A stretch of 64,000 nucleotides of DNA. Source: Paenibacillus sp. (GTDB lineage Bacteria; Bacillota; Bacilli; Paenibacillales; YIM-B00363). The notes under the pieces were generated by a model. The model was not told the DNA's origin and did not search any database. It worked only from the letters and a program-made list of their open reading frames with translations. The stretch lies in NCBI GenBank assembly GCA_031181325.1, contig JAPSKX010000003.1, positions 1-64,000 on the forward strand, written 5' to 3'. The position numbers were made by a program, and so were the translations under genes. The stretch's first letter is position 1, and the number at the start of each line of letters is the position of its first letter. This document shows positions 658 through 23,684 of this stretch, in pieces.

Positions 658-1239
658 TTATTGCAGAACCGTCTTCCCCTGGGCGTCGATCTCCGTGTAT
701 CCGCCCTTGATCGTGACGTACACGTCGTTCGGATAGTCCGGCTTCACCTTCACGCCGCGGCCTTCGCGCGGAATCATCAACAGGTGATTTTTCGGAATGA
801 GCGTATCCAGCTTCAGATCGACGCCGTCCGTGACGTCGGGGATCCCGTTTTCCGGGGTACTATGTACATAAGCCTGTCCCGTCCGCACAATGAACTCCGT
901 CCCCGTATCGCCGAGCAGCATATGTCCCGCCTTCAGGCGCACGACCGCATACGGCACCGACGCCGAAGCGCCGCCGTTCGCCAGCTGCTCCTCGAGCTCG
1001 ACCACGCGCCGCTGCAGCGCCTCGATCGTCGCCTTCGTCGTATCCGTTCCGCCGACCGCTTCGCCGTTCAGCGCTTTCCGAATTTGCTCGTCCACATAAC
1101 TTTTCGTCACGACCGGGTCCTCCGACGATCCGGGCTGCCCCGCCCCCGGAATGCCGCTCGCGAACGTCGTCAACATCGAACCGACCCAGACGCCGCAGCC
1201 GATTGCCGCGACCGCTGCCGCTACTTTTCCCCAACGCAT
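658..1239 (-). CDS. Membrane-anchored protein of unknown function with coiled coil
   Basis: A 193-residue protein that I do not recognise. It begins MRWGK and then a hydrophobic stretch (residues about 5-27) that is either an uncleaved anchor or a signal peptide. A predicted coiled coil follows (about 65-88, TIEALQRRVVELEEQLAN), then a compact C-terminal domain rich in beta-type sequence. The ATG at 1239 is chosen because GAGGAG lies 9 nt upstream; an in-frame TTG at 1308 has no RBS. It sits between the exporter operon terminator and the spore-protein gene with no overlap to either, so it may be transcribed alone. No function can be assigned. Confidence 0.7.
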   Translation of the reverse strand: MRWGKVAAAVAAIGCGVWVGSMLTTFASGIPGAGQPGSSEDPVVTKSYVDEQIRKALNGEAVGGTDTTKATIEALQRRVVELEEQLANGGASASVPYAVVRLKAGHMLLGDTGTEFIVRTGQAYVHSTPENGIPDVTDGVDLKLDTLIPKNHLLMIPREGRGVKVKPDYPNDVYVTIKGGYTEIDAQGKTVLQ

Positions 1240-1313
1240 GCCCTCGCGCTCCTCTGCCAATATGTTCTCTATGAATCTATCATAACGAACGATGTCGAAC
1301 GGTGGCAACCCAA

Positions 1314-1349
1314 ATCAAAAAAACGAAGCCCCCTCGTCGAGGACTTCGT
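1314..1349 (-). terminator. Rho-independent terminator after the exporter operon
   Basis: AACGAAG..CCTC pairs with GAGG..CTTCGTT (1349-1338 with 1334-1321) and is followed on the minus strand by a run of Ts. It lies just after the stop codon of the gene ending at 1359. Confidence 0.8.
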
Positions 1350-1358
1350 TCCTTCTAC

Positions 1359-3128
1359 CTATTCAATCGACGTAATTAATCTTCTGACGGTTCCGGTCGC
1401 CGTCTGAATCGACTCGTAAATTCGGATCGTCAGATCGCTCTCGAGCTGCTCCGTCCGCAAGTTCGTAAAGTGGACGACCGTCTCCCCGCTGATAAGCCGA
1501 CGATTGCCGTTCGGCAGATTGCTTACGAACGACAGCTCCGAAGAGCCGAGGCTGCGACCGAGGGCATCTACGATCTCGATTTCCATCAAGGAGAAGTCCC
1601 GGTCGGTGACGACCTTCTCGTCTTGCTGGATGATCATATCCATCTTCAGCTTATACGAGTATCCCGTTGCCGCATTGTACATCGCGGTGAACTGTTTTTG
1701 TCGAAGTTCGACCGTATACGGGTAAAAAGAGAACGTGCTGTCCGTGCCCGGCTGCTCCACGTCCAGCTTCACGGCCGCCAGGTCCGAGCGGTACGTCGCG
1801 CCGGAAGAAGACGCGACCGGCTCTTGGAGCTTCAACGTGACGTCTTCCCCGGTTTCCGACGCGGGCACCGTGAAGGTATACGCTACGACCGTAGCGAGTC
1901 CCGGCAACACTTGCGACGGCGCGTTGGCCTGTCTCGTTCCGGCATATTGATAGCCCTCCGCGCTTACCAACTCCGCCATCAGCGGCGGGATCGGCATCGC
2001 CTTCGCGCCTACGTTATCCAACTTGATCTTCGCGACAACGGTCTGGAACCCGGAGCCCGACGTCTCATGCATGCTCATTTCGACGAGCGCGACCTTCACA
2101 TCCTCCGGGATGGCGTCGCTGAACCGGCTTAAGTCGACGCTTTCGCCCATCGTATACTCCGGGGCGACTACCGACGTCGTCGTCGCCGCTCCCGGAAGCG
2201 CGAGCGCCACCCGGCCGACATGATATAGCGTCGTCTGCGGCGTCCCGCTCGCCATTGACGTAAATGCTTCCGTAGTGGAGAGCACTACGTTCGCAAACAC
2301 GGAGTTCGGCTTCTTCGGCAGCACGAGATGAATGAATGTATCCTCGCCAGGCAGAAGCACGATCTCTTCCGTCTCCGCACGTTGGCCCGCGAACGCTTCC
2401 TTCCCGTCATACCCTTCGATCGCGAGCGCCGGTACGGTCTGTTTATAAGCGCTTGGGTTTTGGACGAGCAGCTTCAATACGGTGGTCAGCCCCGTCGCGG
2501 CCGCTTGTTCGCTGAACGCGACCGGCGTGTACCGCAGCGGAGACTTCAACGCCTTAAGCTCGAACGGCGTTCCCCAAGCCGCTTGTTCCACGCCGCTTAC
2601 CTCGTTCCCGATCCCCGTCCATACGCGCCCCGCGACCGGCACCTCGACGATCACCGTCTCCTTCTTCGGATACACGTATTTATTGACGTCGACCCACTGC
2701 AGGCTCTTCACGTCCAACTCGTCAAGACCGTCCACGCTCGCCATGAAGCTGAGCTCGATTTCGGCCTGCGGACGCACGGACCTGGCATTGGTCGCCGAAG
2801 CGTCCATGCGATACGATACCCCATCCACCGTACGGACATGCAGCTCGTATTCCGGCACCCGCGCGATCGAGTTCGACCCGTTCTTCAGACGAACGACCGC
2901 CCCGATGTTTACCCCCGTCGCCGTCCGCTGCTGCACGACGCTCTTAACCTCGGTCCTTAGCGAGGCATTCACTTTATAGACCGGTTCCGCGCCCGCCGCC
3001 GTCGCATTCGTTTCCGCCGCCGGTGCCGCGCCGCCCGTCGCCGCGCTTGCCGTCCCGAATCCTAGACCCGAGACGACGACGGCGGCGGACAGAAGCGCGA
3101 CCGCTGTCGGCTTGCCCCATTGTTTCAT
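1359..3128 (-). CDS. Large secreted protein, paralogue A flanking the RND exporter
   Basis: A 589-residue exported protein with a signal peptide (positive start MKQWGK, hydrophobic core, AxA site near residue 29). The mature part is a string of beta-rich modules of about 110-130 residues, with motifs such as VRLKNGS, LVQNPS and KLDNVGAKAMPIP at similar points in each, and a C-terminal module opening FYPYTVEL. The protein at 7908-10070 has the same module order (LRLNNKGS, VMENVG, SIKNKGTTPLPVP, LYPYKVSF), so I infer paralogy. The ATG at 3128 has AGGAGG 10 nt upstream. It starts 19 nt after the adaptor gene and shares its operon. It is probably an extracellular or wall-associated partner of the exporter; I know no function for the family. 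Confidence 0.75.
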   Translation of the reverse strand: MKQWGKPTAVALLSAAVVVSGLGFGTASAATGGAAPAAETNATAAGAEPVYKVNASLRTEVKSVVQQRTATGVNIGAVVRLKNGSNSIARVPEYELHVRTVDGVSYRMDASATNARSVRPQAEIELSFMASVDGLDELDVKSLQWVDVNKYVYPKKETVIVEVPVAGRVWTGIGNEVSGVEQAAWGTPFELKALKSPLRYTPVAFSEQAAATGLTTVLKLLVQNPSAYKQTVPALAIEGYDGKEAFAGQRAETEEIVLLPGEDTFIHLVLPKKPNSVFANVVLSTTEAFTSMASGTPQTTLYHVGRVALALPGAATTTSVVAPEYTMGESVDLSRFSDAIPEDVKVALVEMSMHETSGSGFQTVVAKIKLDNVGAKAMPIPPLMAELVSAEGYQYAGTRQANAPSQVLPGLATVVAYTFTVPASETGEDVTLKLQEPVASSSGATYRSDLAAVKLDVEQPGTDSTFSFYPYTVELRQKQFTAMYNAATGYSYKLKMDMIIQQDEKVVTDRDFSLMEIEIVDALGRSLGSSELSFVSNLPNGNRRLISGETVVHFTNLRTEQLESDLTIRIYESIQTATGTVRRLITSIE

Positions 3129-3147
3129 ATATTGTAATCCTCCTCGA

Positions 3148-4416
3148 TTATTTCGCAAGCTGCACTTTCTCTTGATCGCTCAGCTGATGTTGGCCGGAGA
3201 TGACGAGATCTTCGCCCTCGGCTACGCCCGACAGCACTTCCTGCATCGTCTCGTTAATGCGGCCCAGCTCGACCTGGCGTCGTTCTACGATGTCTCCCTT
3301 CAGGATGAACACGTAATTTTCACTGCCTTCCCGAACGATGCTCGACGTCGGAACCGCGACGACGACTTGGTCTTCTTCTTCGGACAACAGCACCTGCGCC
3401 TTCATGCCAGGCATCAGTTTATTCTCCTTGTTCGGCACTTCCAGCTCAAGCGTGTACGACTTCGTCGCGGAGTTCATCACCGGCGATAAGAAGGCGACTT
3501 TCGCCGATGCCGGCTCCGTCGTTCCCGGCACGTAGAACATCAGCTCCGTCTTGCCGCGGACCGCGTCGGCCGCGGATTGCGTCAGCTCCGCTTTAATCTT
3601 CAGCGGATCGGTCTGTACGACCTGCAGCGCCTTCGTTCCCGGCTGGGTCGTCATCGCGACCTCCAACGGCAGCTCCGTCAACAGCCCGCTGATCGGCGCC
3701 GTTATATTGTAATTTTCCATCTGCCGTTCGGCTTGCTCGTACTGGAGCTGCGCCTGCTTCAGCTGAATCTCGTATTGCTCGAAGGTGAGCTTCGCATCCA
3801 TGGCCGTCTGCTGCTTCTTTAGCAGATCCAGATCGGATTGCAACAGCTTGAGATTGGTTTCGGTTTGATCCAACTCGCGCTGCGTCACATTGCCAAGCTC
3901 GAATTCATTCAACATGAGGTTGTAATTTTCTTGCAAATCCTTAACCTGCTGCTCCATCCGCGCGATCTGGTTTTTCATCTGCAGCTTTTGATTCGCGATC
4001 TCCTGATCTCCCGTCGAGTACGTGCGCTGCGCACTGCGGAGACCGAGCTCCGCGGATTGAAGCGCAAGCAGCGCGTCATCCTGCTTCAGCTGAATGATCG
4101 TCTCCCCGGCTTCCACCCGGTCGCCTCGCTTCTTCAGGATCGCTTCCACCTCGGCGCTCGTCTTCGCGAACACGTCGATCTGGACGGATGCCACGACGTC
4201 CGCGACTTGCTCCATCGGCTCTCCGATCTTCGTCTTGCCTATCTTTTCCGTTCTCACGATCTTCATTTGCTCCGCGGCTTGTTCCGTCTGCTGCGTATCG
4301 TCCGCGGCCGCCGGTTGCAGCGAACAGCCGGCTACAAGCGCGGCGCTTAGCGCCAAGGCGCCCATAGCTCCGATTCGCATCGCGGCTCTGCCTTGCGTAT
4401 TTCCCCATAACTTCAT
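3148..4416 (-). CDS. RND efflux adaptor (membrane fusion protein, HlyD/AcrA type), lipoprotein
   Basis: A 422-residue adaptor. The N-terminus is a lipoprotein signal with lipobox LVAGC (Cys31), so the protein should be lipid-anchored on the outer face of the membrane. A biotinyl/lipoyl-like half (VVASVQIDVFAKTSAEVEAIL) is followed by a long coiled-coil hairpin (about residues 100-235) and a second lipoyl half (NYNITAPISGLLTEL), then the beta-barrel and membrane-proximal domains. These are the standard parts of periplasmic adaptors that couple RND pumps. The ATG at 4416 has AGGAG about 10 nt upstream; an in-frame ATG at 4443 has none. It starts 29 nt after the pump gene in the same operon. Confidence 0.9.
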   Translation of the reverse strand: MKLWGNTQGRAAMRIGAMGALALSAALVAGCSLQPAAADDTQQTEQAAEQMKIVRTEKIGKTKIGEPMEQVADVVASVQIDVFAKTSAEVEAILKKRGDRVEAGETIIQLKQDDALLALQSAELGLRSAQRTYSTGDQEIANQKLQMKNQIARMEQQVKDLQENYNLMLNEFELGNVTQRELDQTETNLKLLQSDLDLLKKQQTAMDAKLTFEQYEIQLKQAQLQYEQAERQMENYNITAPISGLLTELPLEVAMTTQPGTKALQVVQTDPLKIKAELTQSAADAVRGKTELMFYVPGTTEPASAKVAFLSPVMNSATKSYTLELEVPNKENKLMPGMKAQVLLSEEEDQVVVAVPTSSIVREGSENYVFILKGDIVERRQVELGRINETMQEVLSGVAEGEDLVISGQHQLSDQEKVQLAK

Positions 4417-4445
4417 CGCTTCGACTCTCCTTTGTTCTCCCATGA

Positions 4446-7400
4446 CTATATCGTTGCCTGCGCCGGATTCGCTTCGGCATTCGGATTGCGATCTTTCTTG
4501 CGGGTAAGGCGTCTCTTCACCGACTCGATCAGATCGTATATGATCGGTACCACGACGAGCGTTAACAGCGTCGAAGTCGTCAAGCCGCCGATGACGACGA
4601 CCGCCAACCCTTTGGAGATGAACGCGCCTTTGGAGAACCCTAGCGCCAGCGGCACCAGCGCGAAGATGGTCGCGCCCGCCGTCATGATGATCGGACGAAG
4701 CCGCGCCATGCCGCCCTCCAGCAGCGCCTCGCGAACCGGCTTCCCTTCCTCCCGCAGCTGCTGTACCCGGTCGATCAAGACGATCGCGTTCGTGACGACG
4801 ATTCCGATCAACATGAGGAACCCGATCAGCGACGTAATGTTAACCGATTCTCCCGCGATCAGAAGCCCGAACAATCCTCCGATGACGGCCAGCGGCAGGG
4901 AGAACAGTACCGCGAACGGCGCGCTCGCGTTCCCGAACGCCAACACCATGACGAGGTACACAATGAAGATCGACGCCGCCATCGCCAGGAACATCTGCGT
5001 AAAGCTCTCCGCGATATCGTCGCTAATCCCCTTCACCTCGCGGCTTACGCCCGGCGGCAGCTCCAGCGCGTCCAGATCGGCGGTCACCTTCGCGATGACG
5101 CCGGCTTTGTCCACCGCGTCGACCGTTGCCGACACGCGGAGCGTCTGGCTCTGCATCTCCCGTTGAATCGAGACCGGCGCCTCGATCTGCTGCACCTTCG
5201 CGATTTCGTTGAGCGCGACGTCTTGCCCCAAGGGAGACTTCAGGATGAACCGACCGATTTTCTCTACTGTGTTCTTATCGTCGGGATCGACCTCTACCTT
5301 CGTTTCATAGAGTACATTATTGAATCGAAGTTCACCGAGCTGCTCTTCCCGGATCCAAGCCGCTACCATCTCTAGCACTTGGGCCGAAGATAGCGCATAT
5401 TGTCTCGCTTTGCCTTGATCCACCGTGATCTCGATTTCCTTCTTCTTCTCGCCTAGACTGTTTTCGATATCGGTCAGCTCCGGGTATTCCTTGAGCTTCG
5501 CCTCGATCATCGCGGCCGCTTGCTCTAGATAGAGCTGATCTTCCCCTTTAAGGTTATACACGAAATCGGATCCGCCGGTACCGGCGCTGAAGCTGATCAA
5601 CTGCCCGGCGACCTCCGAGTTTTTCGGCATCTCGTAGAGCATCTTCTCTTCCCAAACCTTCAAGGCTTCATTCGCGTCCGTCGCATCGCTGACCTCTGCG
5701 AAAATCATCGCCGTATACGGAATCTGTTCTTCGGATCCGAAGGCGTAGCCGACTAACGATTCCACATAATTAAACGTGTTTGCGCCCGTTTCGTCTTTCG
5801 ATGCGGACATGATCGCTTCGAGTTCTTTGATTTTGCTGTCTAACGTCTCGAAGGACGTCTCCGACGGCATCTCTACGCTGAACAGCATCGACTTATCCGA
5901 GGCGCTCTCCGGCATGAACGCCGTCGGCAGGAACGGGACCGTACCGACAATCGACGCTACGAAAATGACTCCCGTAATCAGCAATGTCTTGATACGATTA
6001 TGTAAGGTCCAGTTTAAAATTTTTCGATAAGCGACTTCCGCTTTCCCCACATGCTCTTCCGAATGCGCCAGTTTCTTTTGGTTCAACACCATCAGCTTCG
6101 CGAGCATCGGAATGACCGTGACCGCAACGAGCAGCGAGGACATCATCGCTACCACGACGGTAATCGCGAAAGGACGAAACACTTCGCCGAGGATCCCCGA
6201 GACGAAGGCGATCGGACCGAACACGCCGACGGTCGTTATCGTGGATGACGTGATCGCGCTGGCGACTTGCGCCGTAGCGTACTTTATAACGCTCTCGTTC
6301 CGCTCCTGCCGCTTTGTTAGTTGGCTGTATATGTTCTCGATGACGACGATACTGTCGTCGACGACCCGGCCGACCGCGATCGCGATGCCCCCGAGCGTCA
6401 TGATGTTCAACGTAATATCGAGTCCCGCCATGACAAGCAGCGTTATCAATATCGACAGCGGAATCGACACCAAGACGATGAAGGTCATTCGAATGTTTCT
6501 TAGGAAAACGAGTATCATGACCGAGGCGAGGAGCGCACCCAACAAGCCTTCCTTCACCATACCGTCGATCGAGTGTTGAATATCCGTAGCCGAGTTATAG
6601 ACGGAATGGAATTTCACGTTCGGAAGCGTCTTCTCCCATTCCGCCATCAGCCGATCGGCTTCCGCCGCGAATTCCACCGTATTGGCATCCTTCGTCTTGT
6701 ATAGATTAATACCGATCGCCGGCTTCCCGTCCAGACGGGCGCGGAAGGTGGACTCGCTTATCGCTTCCACGGTCGAGATTTGATTCAATTGCAGCGTGTC
6801 CCCTGTCGGGGTCGTGATCTGCAGATTCTCCAAGTTATAGATCGTATCGAACTCTCCGGCGACGCGCACCATTTGCGTATTGCCATCGATATCGACGGTA
6901 CCCGCAGGGCTGGCTAGAAGCGCGGCCCGGATCGATTGACTGACCGTCTGAGGCGTAAGCCCGTAATTCAAAAGCGCGTTCGCGCGTAGTCTAATGTTTA
7001 GAACCGCTTCTTCGTTACCGATGGATTCGACATGATCGATCCCGTCGATAGAGTTGAAAGCCGGCAGAATGGTGTCCTTATAAACCCGATCGAGTTCGAC
7101 CTGGTTCATTCCGTTCTCGCCGTAGACGGCTAAGTAGTACACCGGCTGCGAAGCGAAGCCGAAGGTCAGTACCTTCGGGCGTTCCGCACCGCTTGGCAGC
7201 CTAACGTTTTGCAACAAGCCCTCGATATCGTTTTTTGCATCTTCCGTATCGATGCCGCTGTCGAACTCCAGTGTAATCATGGAGAAGTTATCGCTTGAAG
7301 TGGAGGTCATATTTTTAAGACCCTGCACATTCGCGATCGCCTTCTCGATCGGCTTCGTAATTTGGTCCAATACGTCCTTCGGCGGAGCCGTGTATTGGGT

Positions 7401-7547
7401 TTGAACCATGACGATCGGCAATGATATATCCGGCATACTTTCCATCTTCAAGGAAGTCGCGGAGTAGACGCCGCCTCCGAACAGAAGCAGCATGATGATA
7501 AACACCGCAGCGATGTTTTTCATCGAAAAGTCCGTTAATTTACTCAT
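4446..7547 (-). CDS. RND-family exporter (HAE1-like, SwrC/YerP type)
   Basis: A 1033-residue, 12-helix proton-driven exporter, the usual length of HAE1 RND pumps. Features seen are an N-terminal transmembrane helix (about 10-30), two large extracellular loops each preceding a block of helices, and the TM4 signature VGRVVDDSIVVIEN containing the paired aspartates of the proton relay. A related block occurs in the second half (GIVVTNAIVLIDR). In Gram-positives such pumps (for example SwrC of Bacillus subtilis) export surfactants and amphiphiles. The ATG at 7547 follows GAGAGG by 9 nt; a GTG at 7565 lacks an RBS. It is first in an operon with the adaptor and secreted protein A. The substrate is unknown. 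Confidence 0.9.
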   Translation of the reverse strand: MSKLTDFSMKNIAAVFIIMLLLFGGGVYSATSLKMESMPDISLPIVMVQTQYTAPPKDVLDQITKPIEKAIANVQGLKNMTSTSSDNFSMITLEFDSGIDTEDAKNDIEGLLQNVRLPSGAERPKVLTFGFASQPVYYLAVYGENGMNQVELDRVYKDTILPAFNSIDGIDHVESIGNEEAVLNIRLRANALLNYGLTPQTVSQSIRAALLASPAGTVDIDGNTQMVRVAGEFDTIYNLENLQITTPTGDTLQLNQISTVEAISESTFRARLDGKPAIGINLYKTKDANTVEFAAEADRLMAEWEKTLPNVKFHSVYNSATDIQHSIDGMVKEGLLGALLASVMILVFLRNIRMTFIVLVSIPLSILITLLVMAGLDITLNIMTLGGIAIAVGRVVDDSIVVIENIYSQLTKRQERNESVIKYATAQVASAITSSTITTVGVFGPIAFVSGILGEVFRPFAITVVVAMMSSLLVAVTVIPMLAKLMVLNQKKLAHSEEHVGKAEVAYRKILNWTLHNRIKTLLITGVIFVASIVGTVPFLPTAFMPESASDKSMLFSVEMPSETSFETLDSKIKELEAIMSASKDETGANTFNYVESLVGYAFGSEEQIPYTAMIFAEVSDATDANEALKVWEEKMLYEMPKNSEVAGQLISFSAGTGGSDFVYNLKGEDQLYLEQAAAMIEAKLKEYPELTDIENSLGEKKKEIEITVDQGKARQYALSSAQVLEMVAAWIREEQLGELRFNNVLYETKVEVDPDDKNTVEKIGRFILKSPLGQDVALNEIAKVQQIEAPVSIQREMQSQTLRVSATVDAVDKAGVIAKVTADLDALELPPGVSREVKGISDDIAESFTQMFLAMAASIFIVYLVMVLAFGNASAPFAVLFSLPLAVIGGLFGLLIAGESVNITSLIGFLMLIGIVVTNAIVLIDRVQQLREEGKPVREALLEGGMARLRPIIMTAGATIFALVPLALGFSKGAFISKGLAVVVIGGLTTSTLLTLVVVPIIYDLIESVKRRLTRKKDRNPNAEANPAQATI

Positions 7548-7577
7548 GCACCCGTTCCTCTCCACCCAAGCTTTTCT

Positions 7578-7628
7578 AATTAAACGAAAATTATGTAGTT
7601 TGTCAACCTATACTATTTTACTACAATC
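7578..7628 (-). promoter_or_regulatory. Promoter and possible operator of the RND operon
   Basis: On the minus strand TTGACA is followed 16 bp later by TTTAAT. The -35 box lies between an upstream TGTAGT and a downstream ACTACA, an inverted repeat that could be a repressor operator. No repressor gene lies next to it in this window. The rest of 7548-7850 shows no credible gene. Confidence 0.5.
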
Positions 7629-7851
7629 GCGCTGAGCCGATAACCCCCCCTACCTATTCCTGAAATACGCGCTCCGCTTTCTTACGTTTCATCTTATCAG
7701 TCTTCGGCCGATCTCATTATGACTTTTTTGTTAAACGAAAGGAGGTCGTGCCTGGCGGATGACCTATGCACTATCTTATCGCAGGTATTCAAGGGGAAAA
7801 TACCGTCGAAGGCATGTAATCGTACTGGACTCAAGGCGGGGAGACGGAAAA

Positions 7852-7890
7852 AGAAAAACCTGCAGATGAGCATTACGCTACATCTGCAGG
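7852..7890 (-). terminator. Rho-independent terminator after secreted protein B
   Basis: A perfect 10-bp stem CCTGCAGATG/CATCTGCAGG (7890-7881 with 7868-7859) with a 12-nt loop, followed on the minus strand by TTTTTCTTTTT. It separates secreted protein B from the exporter operon. Confidence 0.85.
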
Positions 7891-7907
7891 TTGCTATTCT
7901 GAATGCT

Positions 7908-10070
7908 TTAGTCCGAGACTGTAAACCAACGGATCTCCTTCGTGGCGATCAGCTTCTTATACCCTGGCTTCACTTGGTCGTAAATGTTGAGCTTGTAATT
8001 TTCTAGATCTTCCAGTCGGTACTTAATATCTTCGTCTTTCTTCGTTAACTCCATGCTGTGCGTTCCAAGCTCCAGCATGTTACCCTCTGCGCTGCCTTCA
8101 TCGGCTGCCGGACTGCCGTCATCCAGCTTTAGCTCGTGGGTCAACTTGAAGCCTGTGACGGGATCCTCGATCTCGACGATGATACGCCGATCCTTCGTGT
8201 CCGCCTCCACCATGAAATCGCGTTCCAGCGTATAGTTGAAGTCTAACTCTACTTCGTTATTGGTGAAATCAATCTGCGTCCCGAACTTCTCGAAGGAAAC
8301 CTTGTAAGGATATAGCTCGAGTTCCTTGAATGTATCCTTCGGCGTCGCCGTCTCTGCCGGGAGATCGAGCACGACCGCATTCACGTAAGCGCTGGTCGTC
8401 GTCTTGCCGTCATCGTCCCCTGCGGCCGGCGGGACCGTCGTTTCTACCGCTTCGCCGAGGAGCAGCTGCAGCTTCGACGTGTCCACACTGCTTGGCAAGC
8501 TTGCCTGGAAGGAAATCAACGCTTTTCCGTTCGGGGCGATGTCCGTCGCCGGCTTCACGATCGTAGCCGGATACACGGCACCGTCGGCCGTTTGGAATTG
8601 ACCGACGTAGGACCCCGTCTGGGTATATCGCTTTTCCAGATTCGTCGCATCGATCGTTGCGCTTACGAGCTTCGCGGAAGGACTGCTGAAGGTATCGATT
8701 TGTCGCGTCTTCAGCTCGGCGCGCTTCCCGATCGCTTCGATCAGGTGCGGTTTCCCGGCTGCAATCGTCGTAATCGACATCAGATCTGCATTGTGATTGA
8801 ACCGAAGCAGCTCTGCGGCGACTTCCCCTTCCGCCGCCTTCTCCTCGAGAGACAAGGCAACCTTCTGGAAGTTGTACGTATACGGAATTTTGCTGACGAA
8901 CTGAACGTCGATTTCGGAGCCCGGCGCGATCGTCAGTACCTTGTCGAATTGGACGAGATCCGCCTTCGCATCCACCACCTCGTCCAACTTGTACCCCCCT
9001 GTTACGCTCGGAACGGGCAGCGGGGTCGTCCCCTTGTTCTTGATCGATACGCTCGAGATCAGCAAGTCCTGGTCTTCCCACGGGACCCTCGTCAGGCTTG
9101 TAAGCACCGCCGTATACGTCCCATCCTCGGTCGAGAACGTCTGTTCCGAACCGATCGAGACATCCTCCGCAGTCGTTGCCGGAAGCTCGTAAGAAGCAAG
9201 CGGAATTGCGATCGAACCCTTGTCGTTCGTTAACGTTTGCGTGAGGACCAATTGCCAGCCTTCGCTTCCGGCTTCGACAGGAATCGCGCCGGACAACGTA
9301 AGTTCCTTTTTTTCCAATGGGTTAAACACCGTATTTTCGGTTAACGTACTCTTAAGCGGATAGAAGAGTCCCGCCTTGCTGCGGAGCTGGAATTGGAAAT
9401 TCACGCCCGTTACCGATTGCGTTCCGACATTCTCCATTACCACCGTCACCGAGGGCAAGAAGTTTTTGTCATTTTTACCGACGGCAATGCGCTTTAGAGA
9501 AGTATTAAAGTTGGACTTGTCCGTCACAACAGTGAAGGAACGATTCTTCGGTACACTTTTGTTATAGTTGGCCGGAATCGAGATTGTCCCTAGTACTCTC
9601 TCGAAATTCGATTGCGAGAAATCCCACGCGATCATGGAAAATTGCAGATCGGATAATTTCACCGTCTTGCTTACTTTCGCGTAGAACCGGTAATCTTGGT
9701 GGGATCCGGCCGCAACCTGATTCTGATCTTTATTCTCGGACACAAGATTCACCGTAAAGCTGCTCCCGCCCTTGGATTTCACGCGGACCCAATAATCCTG
9801 GAAATTTAGCGGCGTTTGGCTCCCCTTGTTGTTTAGACGCAAGGTGAAGGACACGATTTTATCCGTCGTTTGCTCTAACTCTTGTACATTTAATAGTTCA
9901 AAGTTAGCTGCGCTTGAAATATTCACTTTACCTAACGAAGGCGCCGTATAGGGGGTCGTCTGCGCTGCAGGAGCGTCGGGCGTGCTCGCGGCTTGCGCCT
10001 GACCCAGACTGACTGCCAACGCCATCACCGTTGCCAGAGCAACCGCTTTATTTCGATACACGTTCTTCAT
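7908..10070 (-). CDS. Large secreted protein, paralogue B
   Basis: A 720-residue exported protein with a signal peptide ending AQAQA near residue 27. It has successive beta-rich modules whose landmarks (LRLNNKGS, VMENVGTQS, SIKNKGTTPLPVP, then LYPYKVSF near residue 590) recur in the same order as in the protein at 1359-3128. It is longer by one module of about 120 residues in the middle (around residues 430-560). The ATG at 10070 has AGGAGG with 8-nt spacing. It lies 84 nt after the stalk-domain gene with no terminator between, so the two are probably cotranscribed. I infer an extracellular envelope role from secretion and context; the biochemical function is unknown. Confidence 0.75.
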   Translation of the reverse strand: MKNVYRNKAVALATVMALAVSLGQAQAASTPDAPAAQTTPYTAPSLGKVNISSAANFELLNVQELEQTTDKIVSFTLRLNNKGSQTPLNFQDYWVRVKSKGGSSFTVNLVSENKDQNQVAAGSHQDYRFYAKVSKTVKLSDLQFSMIAWDFSQSNFERVLGTISIPANYNKSVPKNRSFTVVTDKSNFNTSLKRIAVGKNDKNFLPSVTVVMENVGTQSVTGVNFQFQLRSKAGLFYPLKSTLTENTVFNPLEKKELTLSGAIPVEAGSEGWQLVLTQTLTNDKGSIAIPLASYELPATTAEDVSIGSEQTFSTEDGTYTAVLTSLTRVPWEDQDLLISSVSIKNKGTTPLPVPSVTGGYKLDEVVDAKADLVQFDKVLTIAPGSEIDVQFVSKIPYTYNFQKVALSLEEKAAEGEVAAELLRFNHNADLMSITTIAAGKPHLIEAIGKRAELKTRQIDTFSSPSAKLVSATIDATNLEKRYTQTGSYVGQFQTADGAVYPATIVKPATDIAPNGKALISFQASLPSSVDTSKLQLLLGEAVETTVPPAAGDDDGKTTTSAYVNAVVLDLPAETATPKDTFKELELYPYKVSFEKFGTQIDFTNNEVELDFNYTLERDFMVEADTKDRRIIVEIEDPVTGFKLTHELKLDDGSPAADEGSAEGNMLELGTHSMELTKKDEDIKYRLEDLENYKLNIYDQVKPGYKKLIATKEIRWFTVSD

Positions 10071-10154: not shown

Positions 10155-10865
10155 TTACTCCATGAGCTCGAGCAGCCCTCTATTGCTCTGAAGGATGTTC
10201 CTATAATACAAAGTAAGGTAATCCTCTTCTTCCGGCCGTTCCGTAAAACGTACCAAATAATCGACAGCTTCTTGCAGCGAGCGTATGATTTGATCCAGCT
10301 TCTTGACATCATCCGTCAGCGAACTAATTTTGTCGGTTTGGTTCGGATACTTATTATAGAGCTCTAAAGTTAGATTATTTATATTTCTATATCTCTCCGT
10401 TACTTTCTGGATTTCCGTTTTCCTTATGATATCTATGTCATAGGCTACGTTGTCTGTAACGAAAATATCCTTCGCAATTTGCGTTTGCTGGATTAGGAGT
10501 TGGACGAGTCCTGCCGTTTCATATACTTGCTGATACATCGTATGTATCTCATTGGACATTTCATCTTCATCTGCCGATTCTTGATCATCCGATTGCTCCG
10601 TATGCTTCATCTTGATCAGAGCCGTACTGGTTGATGGATCCCAAGCGACGTGAGCTCCTAACGCTTCCGAAACAACCTTCAGCGGTACAAGCGTAGTCCC
10701 ATCCATATTTATGGCTGGCACACCGGATTGAACCGCTTCATCATTTACTTTCACTTGTACCGTCGGAAATCCTTTATATACAGAAGTCCCATCACCAACG
10801 GCTGATGCGGTCATATGACCTACGAAGAGTGACGCCAGAGTAATACCGATTAGTTTCTGCTTCAT
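10155..10865 (-). CDS. Secreted stalk-domain (copper amine oxidase N-like) protein
   Basis: A 236-residue exported protein. The signal peptide is followed by one copy of the copper-amine-oxidase N-terminal-like (stalk) domain at about residues 33-88, recognisable from VQVKVNDEAVQSG, TTLVPLKVVSEALGAHVAWD and ALIKM. Such domains are common in surface proteins of Paenibacillaceae and do not imply oxidase activity. The remainder is acidic then helical (about 110-235), with no motif I know. The ATG at 10865 has AAGGAAG upstream. It lies between the S-layer gene terminator and secreted protein B and probably shares a transcript with the latter. Confidence 0.75.
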   Translation of the reverse strand: MKQKLIGITLASLFVGHMTASAVGDGTSVYKGFPTVQVKVNDEAVQSGVPAINMDGTTLVPLKVVSEALGAHVAWDPSTSTALIKMKHTEQSDDQESADEDEMSNEIHTMYQQVYETAGLVQLLIQQTQIAKDIFVTDNVAYDIDIIRKTEIQKVTERYRNINNLTLELYNKYPNQTDKISSLTDDVKKLDQIIRSLQEAVDYLVRFTERPEEEDYLTLYYRNILQSNRGLLELME

Positions 10866-10900
10866 AACGATCTTCCTTTCTGTAAATAAAGACTAATAAC

Positions 10901-10925
10901 AAAAAGAGACCCTATCGGGTCTCCC
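10901..10925 (-). terminator. Rho-independent terminator of the S-layer gene
   Basis: GAGACCC/GGGTCTC (10923-10917 with 10912-10906, loop GATA) followed on the minus strand by five Ts, 12 nt after the S-layer stop codon. Confidence 0.85.
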
Positions 10926-10937
10926 TTTGGTTAAAGA

Positions 10938-13900
10938 TTAGTTAAGAACAACGTCTACGGAAGCTGTCTTACCGCTAGGAGCAGTTACCGTAATCGTGAA
11001 GCTGGAGAGTGTACCTCTATTATTGATAGAGAGTTCACCAGTGGAACTGTTGATGGAGATGTCTCCAGTTTGCGTGATGTTGCTGCTCCACTTCTTGTTG
11101 GAGATGCCGAACTGAAGGTTGAAGATATCGGCTTCCTTGGATACCAAGGTATCAGTATCTCCGCCAAGCGCATATTCGCCGCCGAACTGGTCAAAGATCT
11201 TCAGCTCATCGCCAAGCGTACCATCCCATGCATATTTTCCGGCAAGGCTAGTATAGGCGATACCTTTGGACGTCTTGGAGAACTTGATATCCGCAACAGT
11301 CGGAGCTTCCTTCACCGTTTTAACAGCGATGGTGGTCGATTGAGTGCCCTTCGGAGTAGCGGCAGTTACAATGACGTTAGTCGTACCAGCGTTGTTACCT
11401 ACCAAGTAGAAGTCAGATCCATCCCGGACTACATCGACAATAGCATTGTTGTCCGAGTACACGCTCTGAATAACAGACGATCCGCCGATTCCTACCGTTT
11501 GACCGGAAGCATCCTTCGCTTCAACCTTCACTTTCTTCGTCAGCGGCGTGTAGTTCGCTTGAATGTCGCTAGCAGTAGCTACAGTTCTAGCGAAACGGAA
11601 ACCGTCAAGAGCCAAATCCTTCACTGCCAAGATCGTGTTGTCTGCATTGCCTTTATCCAAGCTTACGGTATAAGTCAAGTTATGGTTGGAAGCCGTACCG
11701 CTGATCACTTCGACCGTCTTGCTCAAAGTATCCCCAACTACCTTACCGTCTTTGAGAAGCTCGAACTTGACGCGGTAGTTGCCAAGAGCGTCGCCGTGCA
11801 GCTTCAGTTCCTTATCCCAGTATGCCCACTTCGTTGCAGAAGCAAACGGTGCGCGATCGAACTCAACTGTTGCAGTGTTCGATCCACCTGCGACATTGGA
11901 CAAGTTAAGCGTCGTTGCAGCATACTCATTCGTGCCGTCGCCGTTCTCGTCATAAGCAGGAAGCTCCAAACGAGCGCCCGTGGATGCAGAACCTACCGCT
12001 TCCAAAGTAACCTTAACTTGGTAGTTATCTTCGGAGTAGTTCTTTTCGTAAGCTTCGCCGTACTGGTCATACGTTTTTACTTTGAATGCATCGTGCGCGC
12101 CGAGCAAGATGCTGTCCGTAAGTGCATCGGAGATTTTCACCGAGTTCGGGTAACGCATTTTCGAAACGTTGAGGTTCAGCGTACCTTTCACTTCCGGCTT
12201 CTCTCTCAAGGACAATTCGATCTTGGAAGAGCCCGTACCGTCAGCTTCTACTCTCAGTTTACCAACATGCTCGCCAGTCAAGACGATACCGTTGAGAACT
12301 GTACCAGCGCTGTCAGCTGCTTCCTCGATTGCGCCGCTCGTGTACACTTTGAACTTGTCAGCATTGTCCTTGATTTCTTGTGCAGTCAAAGTATCTCCGT
12401 TGCTGTCTTTAACAATGATCGGAATGTGCTTTTCACGGTCGCCATCCGCAATCGTGCCAGAGAAAGCAGGGATTTCAATGCTTGCAGGTTGTCTTACAGT
12501 CGCTACCTTAACCGTCTTCGTTGCCGAGCTGCCGCCTGCGTATGCAGAGATTACAACTTCCTTGCTTACTTGTCTGGAAGTGTCATCTTGCGTGTATACG
12601 ATTTGCAAGTCAGCTTTGTCGTCGCCGTCAACGTCTTCAACGAACGGAGTGCGATCGTCGATTACGCTACCAGTTACCGTAGCCGCTTCAACATCCCGGT
12701 CGTTCGTGTTGACCGACACATCGTCATTCAATTGATCACGGTCATAAACTTTCATGCCATATTGATCGTAAGCCGTGAACTGAACGTATGCTCTTTCGTT
12801 GAGTTCTGCTCTGAGGTAGTCAATTTTGTCGCCGTTCTTGTCTACCAGATCGCCGAGCTCGATCTTCGATACCAATACAGGATCGCCGATCGTAAAGATT
12901 TTGCTCGCTTGAAGGCGAGTCTCGTCGTCAATGATCGTCACGGAGAAACGATCGCCTGTACGCAACAGATTCCGATCGTTCGACGTGTAAGTCGGGTCTT
13001 GGATGAACGTATCGATCGTGAACGCCGTTTCGCCTGTACGGTTTTGTACAGTGTCCTCGATGTCGCGGTCCGATACGCGGATTTCATAGTTGCTAGCCGA
13101 CTTGCCTTCTACCGGCTTGCCGTATTGGTTCACAGCTTGGAACTCGATAAGAACGTCCTTAGCTTGAGCAACCGTCTCGGAAGCAGTAACGAACTCCAAC
13201 TTAGCTACTTTCTCAGCTTGTGCTTCAACTTCAGCAGTAGCTTTCTCCGAATCGAGGTTGCTGATTCCGCCGAGCGTTACAGAGTACGTTGCGTCAACAA
13301 GCTTGCTTTCGAGCTTGAGAACTGCCGAACGCTTATCGTCGGAGAACTTCGTTTCAGTAACTTTAACCGCCGAGCCGCTGCGCTTAACTTCGAACGTCGC
13401 CTTCTCCGTGTCAACCGGTCCGTTGAACGTAACCGTCAACTCGCTTGCGTTCGTAGCTTCGACTTTGTTGATGCCGATCGTCGCAGGAACGTTCAACTCG
13501 GAGTGTGCCGTGTACGCGGAGACGACGAGCGCTTCGCGAACAGCCGGTACCGTGTAGTCCGTTTGCTCCGTAATGATGCCAGCTTTAACAGCTGCTGCGA
13601 CATAAGCTTGCGCCCAGTCCGTAACTTCGCCTTCGACCGTAGCTTCTTCGTCAACTTCGATGTCCAACACGCGAACCATTACTGCTGCGAGTTGCTCGTA
13701 AGTGAACGTGTCCGTCGGGCCGAATTTGCCGTTGCCGTAACCTTCCATGTACTCCGGAGTTACTGCGCCGATGTAGCCGGCAGCCCACTCAGAGTTCAAG
13801 AGGTCCGTGAACTTCGCGTTTGCCGCGTTTTGGTCGAGGTCGAGGAGGCGTGCAATGATCGTCGCGACTTCTGCGCGAGTCATTTGACGGTCGAGACCAG

Positions 13901-14048
13901 CGGAGCCGTCTTCGTAACCTGTGAAGACACCTTCTTTAACCAATGCTTCGAATTTCTCTTGTGCAGTCAAATCAGCAGCCATTGCTGCGGACGAGAATGC
14001 GGATACTGCCATGGAAGCTGCGAGAAGCAGCGCTAAACCTTTTTTCAT
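10938..14048 (-). CDS. S-layer-type protein with three N-terminal SLH domains
   Basis: A 1036-residue protein, probably the main surface-layer subunit. It has a signal peptide (MKKGLALLLAASM.., site near residue 24), then three SLH domains (about 25-185; the first has the TRAE motif in RQMTRAEVATII), then many Ig-like beta domains to the end. SLH domains bind pyruvylated cell wall polymer, which csaB in this window would make. Codon choice is more AT-leaning and uniform than in neighbouring genes, as expected of a very highly expressed gene. Two in-frame starts have good RBSs: ATG 14048 (GAGGAGG, long spacer) and ATG 14123 (AAGGGGGTG, 8 nt), the latter adding 25 residues before the signal peptide. 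I list the shorter form. Confidence 0.9.
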   Translation of the reverse strand: MKKGLALLLAASMAVSAFSSAAMAADLTAQEKFEALVKEGVFTGYEDGSAGLDRQMTRAEVATIIARLLDLDQNAANAKFTDLLNSEWAAGYIGAVTPEYMEGYGNGKFGPTDTFTYEQLAAVMVRVLDIEVDEEATVEGEVTDWAQAYVAAAVKAGIITEQTDYTVPAVREALVVSAYTAHSELNVPATIGINKVEATNASELTVTFNGPVDTEKATFEVKRSGSAVKVTETKFSDDKRSAVLKLESKLVDATYSVTLGGISNLDSEKATAEVEAQAEKVAKLEFVTASETVAQAKDVLIEFQAVNQYGKPVEGKSASNYEIRVSDRDIEDTVQNRTGETAFTIDTFIQDPTYTSNDRNLLRTGDRFSVTIIDDETRLQASKIFTIGDPVLVSKIELGDLVDKNGDKIDYLRAELNERAYVQFTAYDQYGMKVYDRDQLNDDVSVNTNDRDVEAATVTGSVIDDRTPFVEDVDGDDKADLQIVYTQDDTSRQVSKEVVISAYAGGSSATKTVKVATVRQPASIEIPAFSGTIADGDREKHIPIIVKDSNGDTLTAQEIKDNADKFKVYTSGAIEEAADSAGTVLNGIVLTGEHVGKLRVEADGTGSSKIELSLREKPEVKGTLNLNVSKMRYPNSVKISDALTDSILLGAHDAFKVKTYDQYGEAYEKNYSEDNYQVKVTLEAVGSASTGARLELPAYDENGDGTNEYAATTLNLSNVAGGSNTATVEFDRAPFASATKWAYWDKELKLHGDALGNYRVKFELLKDGKVVGDTLSKTVEVISGTASNHNLTYTVSLDKGNADNTILAVKDLALDGFRFARTVATASDIQANYTPLTKKVKVEAKDASGQTVGIGGSSVIQSVYSDNNAIVDVVRDGSDFYLVGNNAGTTNVIVTAATPKGTQSTTIAVKTVKEAPTVADIKFSKTSKGIAYTSLAGKYAWDGTLGDELKIFDQFGGEYALGGDTDTLVSKEADIFNLQFGISNKKWSSNITQTGDISINSSTGELSINNRGTLSSFTITVTAPSGKTASVDVVLN

Positions 14049-14251
14049 AACCTTTTTTTCTCCTCCTCGAATATCGTTCGGTGTGTGAGAATTTCTTTTA
14101 ATTGTGTAGCTCTTATCCCTCATCGCCGATTCACCCCCTTTCCAAGGTTGAGCGTTAATTTCCTATTTAGGAAGTCTGCAACCAATAGCTTTGTACAAGC
14201 TGCAGAAACTAGTAAACCAAGCGAGATACTAGAGACTAAAACCACTTTACA

Positions 14252-14604: not shown

Positions 14605-17600
14605 TCACTTCGGGATTTTTCTGGCTTCGCGCAAGACGCGAATCAATACGGCGGCACCTTGGTCGCGCGTGAAAGCCGTATCCGGCTCGAAGCGGAAGGT
14701 TTCTTTTTTCTGTCCAGGCAAGAGCAAATTTTTAATTCCTTCGATATACCCTTCTTTTAATACGGCATTAACCGCCGGCTGCGCATACGATTCGATATCG
14801 TTCGCATCCGTGAATTCCTTCTGCAAGCTCGCGGTCAGCTTCTCCGATACCGGATCCAGCTTTAAATTCGCCGCCCTTGCGATCATGACGGCCGCCTGCT
14901 CCCGCGTGATGCCGCCGTTCGGATTGAACTTGTTCTCCTCCATGCCCCGAACGATCCCCGCGCGCGCCGCCGTCTCGATATATCTGTAGCTGTAAATTTT
15001 AAAATTCGTTATGTCGATCCTCGGAACGTCGGAGAAGGTGGGATCTCCGTCGTAGTTCAACGGGATATCGAACGCCTTCACGAGCAGAGTAGCGAATTCC
15101 CCGCGCGTCATCGGGTCATACGGCCGGAACCAATCGTCTTCTTTATTAAACATGTAGCCTTTGGAATAAAGCACGTCCAAGTCGTTCCGCGCCCAATCGT
15201 GAGCAATCACATCGTTGAAGCTCTGATCCATGTACATCACTTGATAGTAGCCGAACCGATATAACGGGACTGTGATCGTATTTTTGCCCGGGTCGACGAC
15301 GCCCCCGATGTTTTGCCATGCCCAGCCCATATCGCCGTCAGGCAGCTCTTGATAGTCGAAGTGGAACACAGTAACGTATTTCCAGCCGTCTTGACGGATG
15401 ACCGGATTGTAGGACAGGGTGAGCGTCCCCGCCGCGGTCGGTACCATCTGATCATCAGGGTGGCGAAGATAGAACTTGGGAGTCGCATACGGGTCTTGGC
15501 CGCTGCCACGGTAAGCGAGCTCGAGATCGTCTTCGTCGGCTTCCACGGTCCCGGCATCGATCCAGAACAACGGGCTCACCGCGTTGAAGCGAATTCGCTC
15601 TTCTCCCGCCAATTCGGAGATTGCGGATCCCTCGGCGTCATGTTCGATCTTATCGATGCGGCCGTCCGTCGAGTTCGCGATGCCGAATAAAATTTGCCGA
15701 TCGGCAGTCACGAATGTGTTCTTATCTTCCGGATCGTTCCGCTTCAGATTGGTCCCTTTCGGGAACGATAGCTTTAACTGTTTATTGAAAATGTCGACCT
15801 TCTTGCCGATGGTGGTTTTATAACTGGCGCCGTCCATCACAGTATTCACGTTAATGACGACGACCTCGACGTCCAGTTCTTCCGTGCCGCGCACAATCGT
15901 GAATTCGACGTTATTTTTCCCGGCTTTCAAATCGCGGACTTCGAATTCGTAAACATCCGGAACATCCGTTTCGAACGCCGGCAACCCGTCGACCAAAATT
16001 CGATCGGACGCCTCCGCCTTAACTTCGAATTTGACGAAGTTGGCGTTTACGTTCGCCTGGGTATCCCCTTCCGGCGTAATCATGGTAATCGGCGAGATGA
16101 TTTCGTATGGAAGAACCTCGCGGCGAATCGTAATCGCGCGGATCGCCTCGATGCCGGAGTTGTTCGTAACCTTGAATACGAACGTAGTGTTTCCCGTCGG
16201 CGCTAATCGAATACTGCCCGTCGATATTGTATTCCCTGAGAACGTCAGAGTCTGGGGCCCTTCCTGCGGTCCGCCGATCACTTCAAGCGTTCCTTGATTG
16301 GCTTCTTTGACTGTTCCGGCGAAACTGACTTCGAACAGGTTCGTAACGTAGTTATTCTCAAGGTTCGTCGTCTTGAAATCGTCGCGTCCCGCCGCTTCGA
16401 CAGGGCTTAGATCGACGAATTCCGGAATGTTCACCGTATTTAAGAATACGTTCCACGTCGTTGAAGAAATTAACTTCGTACGAGCCGTATCTTCGAAGAT
16501 GCTGACCTTAATCGTGTTAGCGCCCTGCACCAGCCGACCCTCGAACAGGAACTGGTGCACGTTCGGCGTCCCTCCCGCCTCAATCGTTACGGGATGGTTA
16601 TTGACTTCGATCCTGACGGCGGCGATATCCGGAATGTTCACAGTCCGGAATCTTATGGTTCTCCCCGTGTCGGCGGTGGTCAACACCTCGCCTTGCGTCA
16701 GGTTCTGGAACGTAATGTAAGGAACGCTGGATACCGTGAATTGATAGGTTCTGCCGTTCCCCGTACGATCCGTCGTTCCATCCTGCACAGGAAAGAACGT
16801 CGCGCCGAAGTCCCCGCCCGGGAAATTGTTGTTGAACGTAATATCGACGTACTTGCCGGCGACGTTGACCGCATCCGGAGTACCGCCGGAAATGTCCGCC
16901 CCCCCGATGCCTGTCCGGCGCAGTTTCACCCCGGTGGCCGCCGTGACCGGACCCGAGAAATGAACGCGGAACGTTACCGGCTGCTGCGTAATTTCCGTGA
17001 GAAGCGGCGCTTCGCTCATGCGAATGAAGCTCGTGCTGGCGCCGATCCGCATTTCCACATAATTTACATACGGTTGAGTGCTGTCCTGCACGCTGACGTC
17101 GAACGAGGAACCCACCTCCGTCACGGCGCCCTTCTTGAATACGAAATCAACTTTCTGGTTCCGGTTCCCGCTGCTCAGCGTCAACGATCTGGCGAAATCG
17201 AATACGACATAATCGTCGTCGGGACCCGTCGGCGTCCAGACGGGATTTACCGGAAGATTATCGGTCACATCAGTTTCGCCGTCCGGCTCGCCGTTCAACG
17301 AGTCACCAGGAACCACTAAATCATACGTACCGAGCGGAGTTGCCCCGGACATCACCGTGACTTGGTTGTATGCCAGCACGCCGGCGGCGTCCTTGTTCAC
17401 CTTCAGCTTCGCCCCGATATCGACGCTGGCGCTCTCCAGCACGGGCTTTAGGAACAACTTCTGTTCCTCTGAAGTAGCCCCGGTTTCCTTAATCGTTGCA
17501 TGGAACGCGAACGGCCCGCCGTCATCGAATAACAACGAGCGCTGTTGCGTATACGTACGAGACGAGTTCGTGGCGATCATCGTGATGAGGTTGTCTCCCG

Positions 17601-18246
17601 CTTGCAAGTTCAAGTCGACGAAGCGCGTTCCTACCGTATCCGCAGTGATATTGAAATTTCCCTGCGGGTCGGGCCTGACCGACTTTTCCTCCGTAGAACC
17701 GTTCAGGAACGCCTTCAACGAAGAAGCGTTCGGCGCTCGGCCCGAGATGATGAGCAGCGTATCCGCCGCCGGATTCGCCGGGAAGAAGCGGTCGTCCGCG
17801 AACGTCTCTCCGTTCACCGTCAAATTCGATATGCTTGTCGCCGGTGTATAGTAGACCCACCCCGGCGTGAATCGAAGCGTATCCAAGACAGGAGTGATCT
17901 TGTTCAACCCTTCCGTCAGCGGAACGTTCTTCACGACGTAATGAATCGTCGATTGCGCGACCGGCTCGGGCACCGCCGTGATGGTCGCCGTTTGCTTCGT
18001 CGTCACATTGTTGATTTCTAGCTTGAGAGATTGCAATTGTGCGTTCGTAAACCCTTGAAGATTCATCGCGACATCGATTCTGTTGGACGTCACGGACGTA
18101 ATATCGTCGTCATCCGGAGCCGGCCCCGTCGCCATCCCCGTGATCTCCACGATCGGCGCCGCCATAGCCGACCCTGCAGGGAATAATCCTATTAGAAGGG
18201 CTGCGATCAAAGTCATCTGTACCCACGGTCGAAACATGCGTTTCAA
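14605..18246 (-). CDS. SLH-anchored surface protein with Ig-like repeats
   Basis: A 1213-residue exported protein. It has a signal peptide (site near residue 29, GSAMA|AP), a long series of Ig-like/bacterial adhesin-type beta domains (about 30-1000), and three C-terminal SLH domains (about 1010-1205). The TRAE-type motif appears as TRGE, TREQ and TRDQ, variants that may change polymer affinity. The start is a TTG at 18246, chosen because GAGGAGG lies 8 nt upstream; the next ATG (18237) would be too far. It is probably a wall-attached adhesin or scaffold held by the pyruvylated polymer made by the genes upstream. No catalytic motif was seen. Confidence 0.8.
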   Translation of the reverse strand: MKRMFRPWVQMTLIAALLIGLFPAGSAMAAPIVEITGMATGPAPDDDDITSVTSNRIDVAMNLQGFTNAQLQSLKLEINNVTTKQTATITAVPEPVAQSTIHYVVKNVPLTEGLNKITPVLDTLRFTPGWVYYTPATSISNLTVNGETFADDRFFPANPAADTLLIISGRAPNASSLKAFLNGSTEEKSVRPDPQGNFNITADTVGTRFVDLNLQAGDNLITMIATNSSRTYTQQRSLLFDDGGPFAFHATIKETGATSEEQKLFLKPVLESASVDIGAKLKVNKDAAGVLAYNQVTVMSGATPLGTYDLVVPGDSLNGEPDGETDVTDNLPVNPVWTPTGPDDDYVVFDFARSLTLSSGNRNQKVDFVFKKGAVTEVGSSFDVSVQDSTQPYVNYVEMRIGASTSFIRMSEAPLLTEITQQPVTFRVHFSGPVTAATGVKLRRTGIGGADISGGTPDAVNVAGKYVDITFNNNFPGGDFGATFFPVQDGTTDRTGNGRTYQFTVSSVPYITFQNLTQGEVLTTADTGRTIRFRTVNIPDIAAVRIEVNNHPVTIEAGGTPNVHQFLFEGRLVQGANTIKVSIFEDTARTKLISSTTWNVFLNTVNIPEFVDLSPVEAAGRDDFKTTNLENNYVTNLFEVSFAGTVKEANQGTLEVIGGPQEGPQTLTFSGNTISTGSIRLAPTGNTTFVFKVTNNSGIEAIRAITIRREVLPYEIISPITMITPEGDTQANVNANFVKFEVKAEASDRILVDGLPAFETDVPDVYEFEVRDLKAGKNNVEFTIVRGTEELDVEVVVINVNTVMDGASYKTTIGKKVDIFNKQLKLSFPKGTNLKRNDPEDKNTFVTADRQILFGIANSTDGRIDKIEHDAEGSAISELAGEERIRFNAVSPLFWIDAGTVEADEDDLELAYRGSGQDPYATPKFYLRHPDDQMVPTAAGTLTLSYNPVIRQDGWKYVTVFHFDYQELPDGDMGWAWQNIGGVVDPGKNTITVPLYRFGYYQVMYMDQSFNDVIAHDWARNDLDVLYSKGYMFNKEDDWFRPYDPMTRGEFATLLVKAFDIPLNYDGDPTFSDVPRIDITNFKIYSYRYIETAARAGIVRGMEENKFNPNGGITREQAAVMIARAANLKLDPVSEKLTASLQKEFTDANDIESYAQPAVNAVLKEGYIEGIKNLLLPGQKKETFRFEPDTAFTRDQGAAVLIRVLREARKIPK

Positions 18247-18390
18247 GTAAAACTCCTCCTCGTTGTTCTCGTTCTGTTCTTTCCTATGTACGCCGTCCGA
18301 AGCTTCCCGCCTTACCTCCTTCTCGGTCCCGGGCCCTGCTACTAGGGTTAGACTTGTTCCCCGGTAAAAAGTTTCATGTATTTCTGTATA

Positions 18391-18404
18391 TCGGCAAAAA
18401 CCGA
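18391..18404. repeat. Inverted repeat upstream of the SLH gene
   Basis: TCGGCAAAAACCGA is an inverted repeat (TCGG/CCGA) about 145 bp upstream of the TTG start at 18246, inside a wider weak repeat AAGTTT/AAACTT. It could be an operator; I found no convincing -10/-35 pair in this gap. Confidence 0.35.
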
Positions 18405-18445
18405 CAAAAACTTAATAACGCGCCCCAGACTAAAATAACCTGAAC

Positions 18446-18473
18446 GCAAAAACGCCCGCCGGATGGCGAGCGT
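18446..18473 (-). terminator. Rho-independent terminator of tagO
   Basis: ACGCTCGCC/GGCGGGCGT (18473-18465 with 18460-18452, loop ATCC) followed on the minus strand by TTTTT, 17 nt after the tagO stop. Confidence 0.8.
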
Positions 18474-18490
18474 CAGTACACAAGAGATAT

Positions 18491-19561: not shown

Positions 19562-19600
19562 TCTTCTTCTCTTCCACCCCTTCGAAAGCTGACAGTGCCC

Positions 19601-19629
19601 ATTATACTCCTGCCGTATCCCGTTAGAAA
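19601..19629 (-). promoter_or_regulatory. Candidate promoter of tagO
   Basis: TTTCTA (19629-19624), 17 bp, TATAAT (19606-19601), about 40 bp upstream of the tagO start. The -10 is perfect and the -35 weak. Confidence 0.5.
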
Positions 19630-19702
19630 AGCGCGGATGAAGACGGTATTTCCTCGTATTCGACCGTTTTCAGTTCATTTTCAGAAAATATGCGCGGCGA
19701 AT

Positions 19703-20467: not shown

Positions 20468-20479
20468 AATCGACCAACC

Positions 20480-23610: not shown

Positions 23611-23684
23611 AAAGAACACTCCTTACGAAAAATCAAATAGTCGACCCCCGGCTCGTCGGAGCGCTGAAGAATCGCTGCATTCGT

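Follow-up and report, generated by a model that had tools for sequence, protein, structure and literature searches.

Secreted beta-module proteins A and B, candidate wall-side partners of HlyD-type export adaptors in Paenibacillales

Introduction

AcrAB-TolC, MexAB-OprM and MdtABC each join an HAE1-type RND pump to an adaptor whose hairpin tip docks a third component, and in Gram-negative adaptors this tip is the TolC docking site. Among Gram-positive bacteria, SwrC (YerP) of Bacillus subtilis is likewise an HAE1-type RND pump, for which we know of no companion resembling the protein B described here. The conservation of the hairpin in Gram-positive adaptors (MFPs) has been termed puzzling (PMC4338810). 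YknWXYZ of Bacillus subtilis, an unusual four-component system (PMC8277102), is an adaptor-dependent monoderm exporter with an extra component. Here we compare these systems with a Paenibacillus locus in which an HAE1-type RND pump and a lipid-anchored adaptor are encoded between two secreted proteins, A and B.

Results

In the window (the whole 64,000-nucleotide stretch that was analysed), the locus is transcribed on the minus strand in the order SLH2, SLH1, Cu_amine_oxidN1, A, RND, MFP, B and a 216-aa protein, with the following features:

14605..18246, minus strand: SLH2
10938..14123, minus strand: SLH1, an SLH-domain S-layer-type protein (domain match; genomic context)
10900..10929, minus strand: terminator-like hairpin at the boundary between the S-layer gene and Cu_amine_oxidN1-A-RND-MFP-B (consensus match)
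10155..10865, minus strand: secreted Cu_amine_oxidN1 protein (42.4 bits), at the head of the putative transcription unit
7908..10070, minus strand: protein A, with a Sec signal peptide, four beta modules (44-578) and a C-terminal domain (579-720)
4446..7565, minus strand: HAE1-type RND permease (ACR_tran 713 bits over the full protein, residues 12-1013; RND_permease_2 566 bits)
3148..4443, minus strand: adaptor (MFP), HlyD/RND-type, lipid-anchored, with a hairpin of ~127 residues and the tip YNLMLNEFELGNVTQRELDQ
1359..3158, minus strand: protein B, with a Sec signal peptide, three beta modules (~52-472) and a C-terminal domain (473-599)
1317..1355, minus strand: terminator-like hairpin directly 3' of B (17 pairs, T-run; consensus match)
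658..1308, minus strand: 216-aa protein, last in transcription order after B

Terminator-like hairpins follow both SLH1 and B, and Cu_amine_oxidN1, A, RND, MFP and B therefore look like a single unit apart from the S-layer gene. The permease and adaptor genes are separated by 2 nt. B probably starts at the ATG at 3128; the alternative is a TTG, with which the frame overlaps the end of the adaptor gene. Direct reading gave Sec-type signal peptides on A and B and a VAGC lipobox on the adaptor, which matches HlyD_D23 (56.8 bits) and TIGR01730 (157.5 bits) and shows the barrel-sandwich hybrid domain, the membrane anchor and the hairpin typical of MFPs. These readings and the domain matches bear out the sequence-only reading, in which A and B, both with signal peptides, flank the genes for an RND pump of HAE1 type and its lipid-anchored adaptor close to an S-layer gene. 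Solved relatives of the permease are MdtB-like. Of its proton-relay residues, read directly, the Asp pair (VVDDS) is present, and the position of AcrB Lys940 is Thr (VVTNAIV).

An S-layer/wall-polymer locus at window 14605-23619 comprises two SLH proteins and TagO-like, WecG/TagA, CsaB and DUF5693 genes. The CsaB, TagA and DUF5693 genes, upstream of the S-layer gene at 10938-14123, agree with SLH-type wall anchoring. The window also holds an 1811-aa open frame on the minus strand (48384-53819), and a contig scan for relatives returned a single close relative.

The locus departs from AcrAB-TolC, MexAB-OprM and MdtABC in its third gene, which encodes a soluble secreted beta-module protein and no outer membrane factor: neither A nor B matched the OEP/TolC family, and the window unit contains no such gene. 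The comparison with YknWXYZ differs at the extra component, YknW being a four-helix membrane protein whereas A and B are secreted; neither matched the Yip1 domain, and both carry a signal peptide and beta modules instead.

A and B are full-length homologues and constitute a single secreted family with three to six beta modules and a C-terminal domain. In profile-profile comparison of 39 A and 45 B sequences, the best alignment spanned 540 columns (E 1.5e-22) and alternatives shifted in register scored E 1.8e-11; the negative controls, A or B profiles against SLH1 or MFP profiles, were clean (E 0.007 or worse). BLASTP of A against B was weak (E 3e-5) and mainly N-terminal. One beta-type module is present in four copies in A and three in B, with cross A/B pairs reaching E 5e-13, and a distinct C-terminal domain, unlike the modules, is common to both (E 3.4e-11). 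The landmark motifs that the sequence-only reading had picked out in the two proteins therefore reflect real homology. Module counts range from four to six among relatives of A and are three or four among those of B.

One module of B scores just above the Pfam cut-off for DUF4352 (PF11611; 26.0 bits, cut-off 25.9), as in several relatives, and the L146 relative of A scores 38.8 bits (labels L083-L198 denote neighbourhoods fetched from related genomes); window A did not match PF11611. A and B differ from DUF4352 proteins in being multi-module and in their specific C-terminal domain, which has no Pfam or NCBIfam match. Searching the sequences of solved structures brought up no convincing relative of either A or B, and the AlphaFold model of B from a single sequence had a pLDDT of 33, too low to use.

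Across the order, B follows the adaptor. In a census of 18 genomes, not picked by neighbourhood and searched with PF16576 and the A and B profiles, all 44 B genes were located just downstream of a same-strand MFP gene, at a distance of at most 2.7 kb; in the window, B is encoded directly downstream of the MFP. From ~6.5 MFP hits per ~6 Mb genome, chance would be expected to link B to an MFP in ~0.2% of cases per gene. Chance neighbourhood was rejected for B because of the 44/44 census. Counted from the adaptor side, 60/117 MFP hits in the census had A or B within 9 kb and about half had neither. B likely acts on the adaptor.

The transporters beside B-linked adaptors belong to the classes RND, MFS, Wzz/BY-kinase, MacB-type ABC and ABC-2, in gene orders that include small HlyD-EmrA-EmrB-B (MFS), Wzz-BY-kinase-MFP-B, MFP-ATPase-MacB-B and MFP-ABC2 permease-B. 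Because B follows MFPs of other pumps, we rejected a fixed four-gene RND system. The sequence-only reading had envisaged such an envelope system, yet B was seen in no fewer than four export contexts besides this one, and A is found in S-layer loci and ABC cassettes as well. That reading had named occurrence without the pump as a refutation; such neighbourhoods do exist for B, but B without an MFP was never found (44/44, 18 genomes). The MFS cassettes (L083-L087, L093, L094, L096, L097, L165-L167, L171, L172) have a pair of adaptors each, one a HlyD protein of only ~219 aa and the other a full EmrA. Adaptors of the MacB-type cassettes with B (L178-L182) are 553-666 aa long, and HlyD_D23 matches twice in some.

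The A-RND-MFP-B arrangement itself recurs, as the earlier reading had supposed. Among the 79 listed pump relatives scoring at least 1045 bits, B was present within 5 kb in 66, always downstream, A in 34, and both in 30. Six close RND relatives that have no adaptor (L123, L128, L129, L131, L132, L135) have no B either, and RND pumps paired with short-hairpin adaptors (L133, L184, L188, L198) likewise lack it. Distances among B proteins correlate with those among their MFPs (Mantel r 0.73, n=64), a correlation partly expected from joint inheritance and, within the RND class (n=9), not significant beyond it.

We then compared the adaptors. Hairpin lengths were measured automatically, with 31 adaptors giving none; B-linked adaptors have hairpins of 127 residues (RND, EPS) or 159-160 residues (MFS), and those of RND adaptors without B are mostly 61-86 residues among those measured. 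RND-, MFS- and EPS-linked adaptors have in common a tip motif of the type YNK-x-RNDYD-xGL-x-TK, of which the window adaptor tip is a variant. A regular expression found the motif in 53/59 B-linked adaptors versus 2/44 other adaptors. Since MFS- and RND-linked adaptors average only 23% identity, the motif is not simply overall similarity; shared descent could be a partial source of both the motif and the B linkage. The motif or something close to it also occurs in four adaptors that have no B next to them (L127, L183, L186, L191), and three ABC-2-linked adaptors (L089, L163, L164) have B but not the motif. At L186 (4228-6101) and L191 (4968-6892), RND-adaptor pairs with an RNDYD-type tip and no adjacent B have a TetR-like regulator gene between them. 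Read by eye, the tip alignment has a conserved acidic residue where the RLS motif, at what we take to be its TolC-binding positions, has Leu, and the RLS motif is absent.

Module number appears to fall as hairpin length rises (r -0.72), which suggests a spatial fit. We keep this relation as a lead only, because A/B clades confound it and the lengths of MacB-linked adaptors (553-666 aa) are unreliable.

Some B proteins have wall-binding domains of their own. SLH domains precede the modules in 5/5 tested MFS-linked B proteins (773-792 aa; L093, L096, L097, L165, L166) and in one RND-linked B of 860 aa (L136). Window B has no recognisable wall anchor and no SLH domain, and most B proteins likewise have no known anchor.

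The context of A is looser, and A is frequently not near any MFP. It is the last gene of MFP-FtsX permease-ATPase-SBP cassettes (L103, L104, L108, L109, L142), heads MacAB cassettes (L147, L148, L151, L152) and, across several families (L146, L149, L160, L161), is kept beside S-layer genes, with the order SLH2-SLH1-A-X216 in L146, L149 and L161. In the lineage of the window, the RND-MFP-B set comes after an A gene located at the S-layer locus. Neighbourhood labels change 19 times on the A tree, which suggests that A has repeatedly acquired new partners. Its role may differ from that of B. The export-like cassettes of L103, L104, L108, L109 and L142 contain an import-type solute-binding protein (SBP_bac_1). 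At L150, L153, L154 and L155, A and an MFP occur with an SBP-like protein beside importer-type permeases (BPD_transp_1 confirmed in L155 only), an unusual combination of importer and exporter components.

Among 121 genomes of the order, A was detected in 107 and B in 58. Outside the order, hits to the B profile were limited to 3 sampled class genomes, one of which has RND-MFP-B (L143, another order); a phylum-wide genome sample gave no further match, and a plasmid search gave no B. We found no description of the A/B family in the open-access papers searched.

Discussion

Our preferred reading, which we hold to be probable though by no means secure, is that A and B form a wall-side (extracytoplasmic) partner family of HlyD-type adaptor-dependent exporters in Paenibacillales. 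The pump would hand its substrate to the lipid-anchored adaptor assembly, whose long hairpin would extend into the cell wall, and the tip that serves as the TolC docking site in Gram-negatives would dock B. B would be held in the wall, some members by SLH domains of their own, so that substrate may be freed beyond the membrane surface rather than re-entering the membrane. A, a paralogue with four or more modules, would elsewhere be the partner of short-hairpin ABC adaptors; at the S-layer locus here, it perhaps prolongs the route towards the S-layer. Physical contact between B and the adaptor is an inference, as are the path of release and what A does. Docking of B at the tip with guided release through the wall is the more tentative part, which we regard as a real possibility somewhat short of probable.

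B could instead serve as a wall tether or as an assembly factor, putting the adaptor oligomer in place or activating it from outside the export path; the action of YknW on YknX offers a loose parallel. The SLH domains of some B proteins favour such a role, as does the reported effect of YknW on YknX oligomerisation (PMC4338810), but most B proteins, the window's included, have no known wall anchor, and the apparent anticorrelation of module number with hairpin length points, albeit with clade confounding, to a spatial fit. We judge a tether rather unlikely.

Also unlikely, and slightly more so, is the proposal of the sequence-only reading that B (and A) are acceptors or carriers that receive the exported substrate outside the membrane. 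Secreted beta modules beside export pumps would suit it, and so would the solute-binding proteins that accompany A in ABC cassettes. However, a single B family spans RND, MFS, ABC and polysaccharide-type loci, which would be expected to export different substrates, and B tracks the adaptor in every census case. Because one B family serves such different transporters, an adaptor partner fits better than a substrate-specific carrier.

A stronger version of the partner reading would make B, with A, the monoderm stand-in for TolC: a modular wall or S-layer extension docked on the tip of the hairpin and common to RND, MFS, ABC and polysaccharide export, in which the number of modules would fit the length of the hairpin and thereby give a nearly constant span across the wall. 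We consider this version doubtful. It is highly improbable that A and B have a general S-layer or cell-wall role and adjoin exporters through shared neighbourhood alone. A is conserved by S-layer genes (L146, L149, L160, L161) and the window unit adjoins one, but each of the 44 B genes has an MFP upstream of it, at many loci mostly away from S-layer genes, which already makes this view unlikely for B.

Gram-positive adaptors retain a TolC-docking hairpin though TolC is absent, and for the wall-side partner reading the A/B family is a concrete candidate for what that hairpin contacts. Paenibacillales are makers of many exported lipopeptides and polysaccharides. If the partner reading is true, the family would provide a gene by which complete adaptor-dependent exporters of the order can be recognised, and A and B suggest an undescribed outer part for the exporters of bacteria without an outer membrane.
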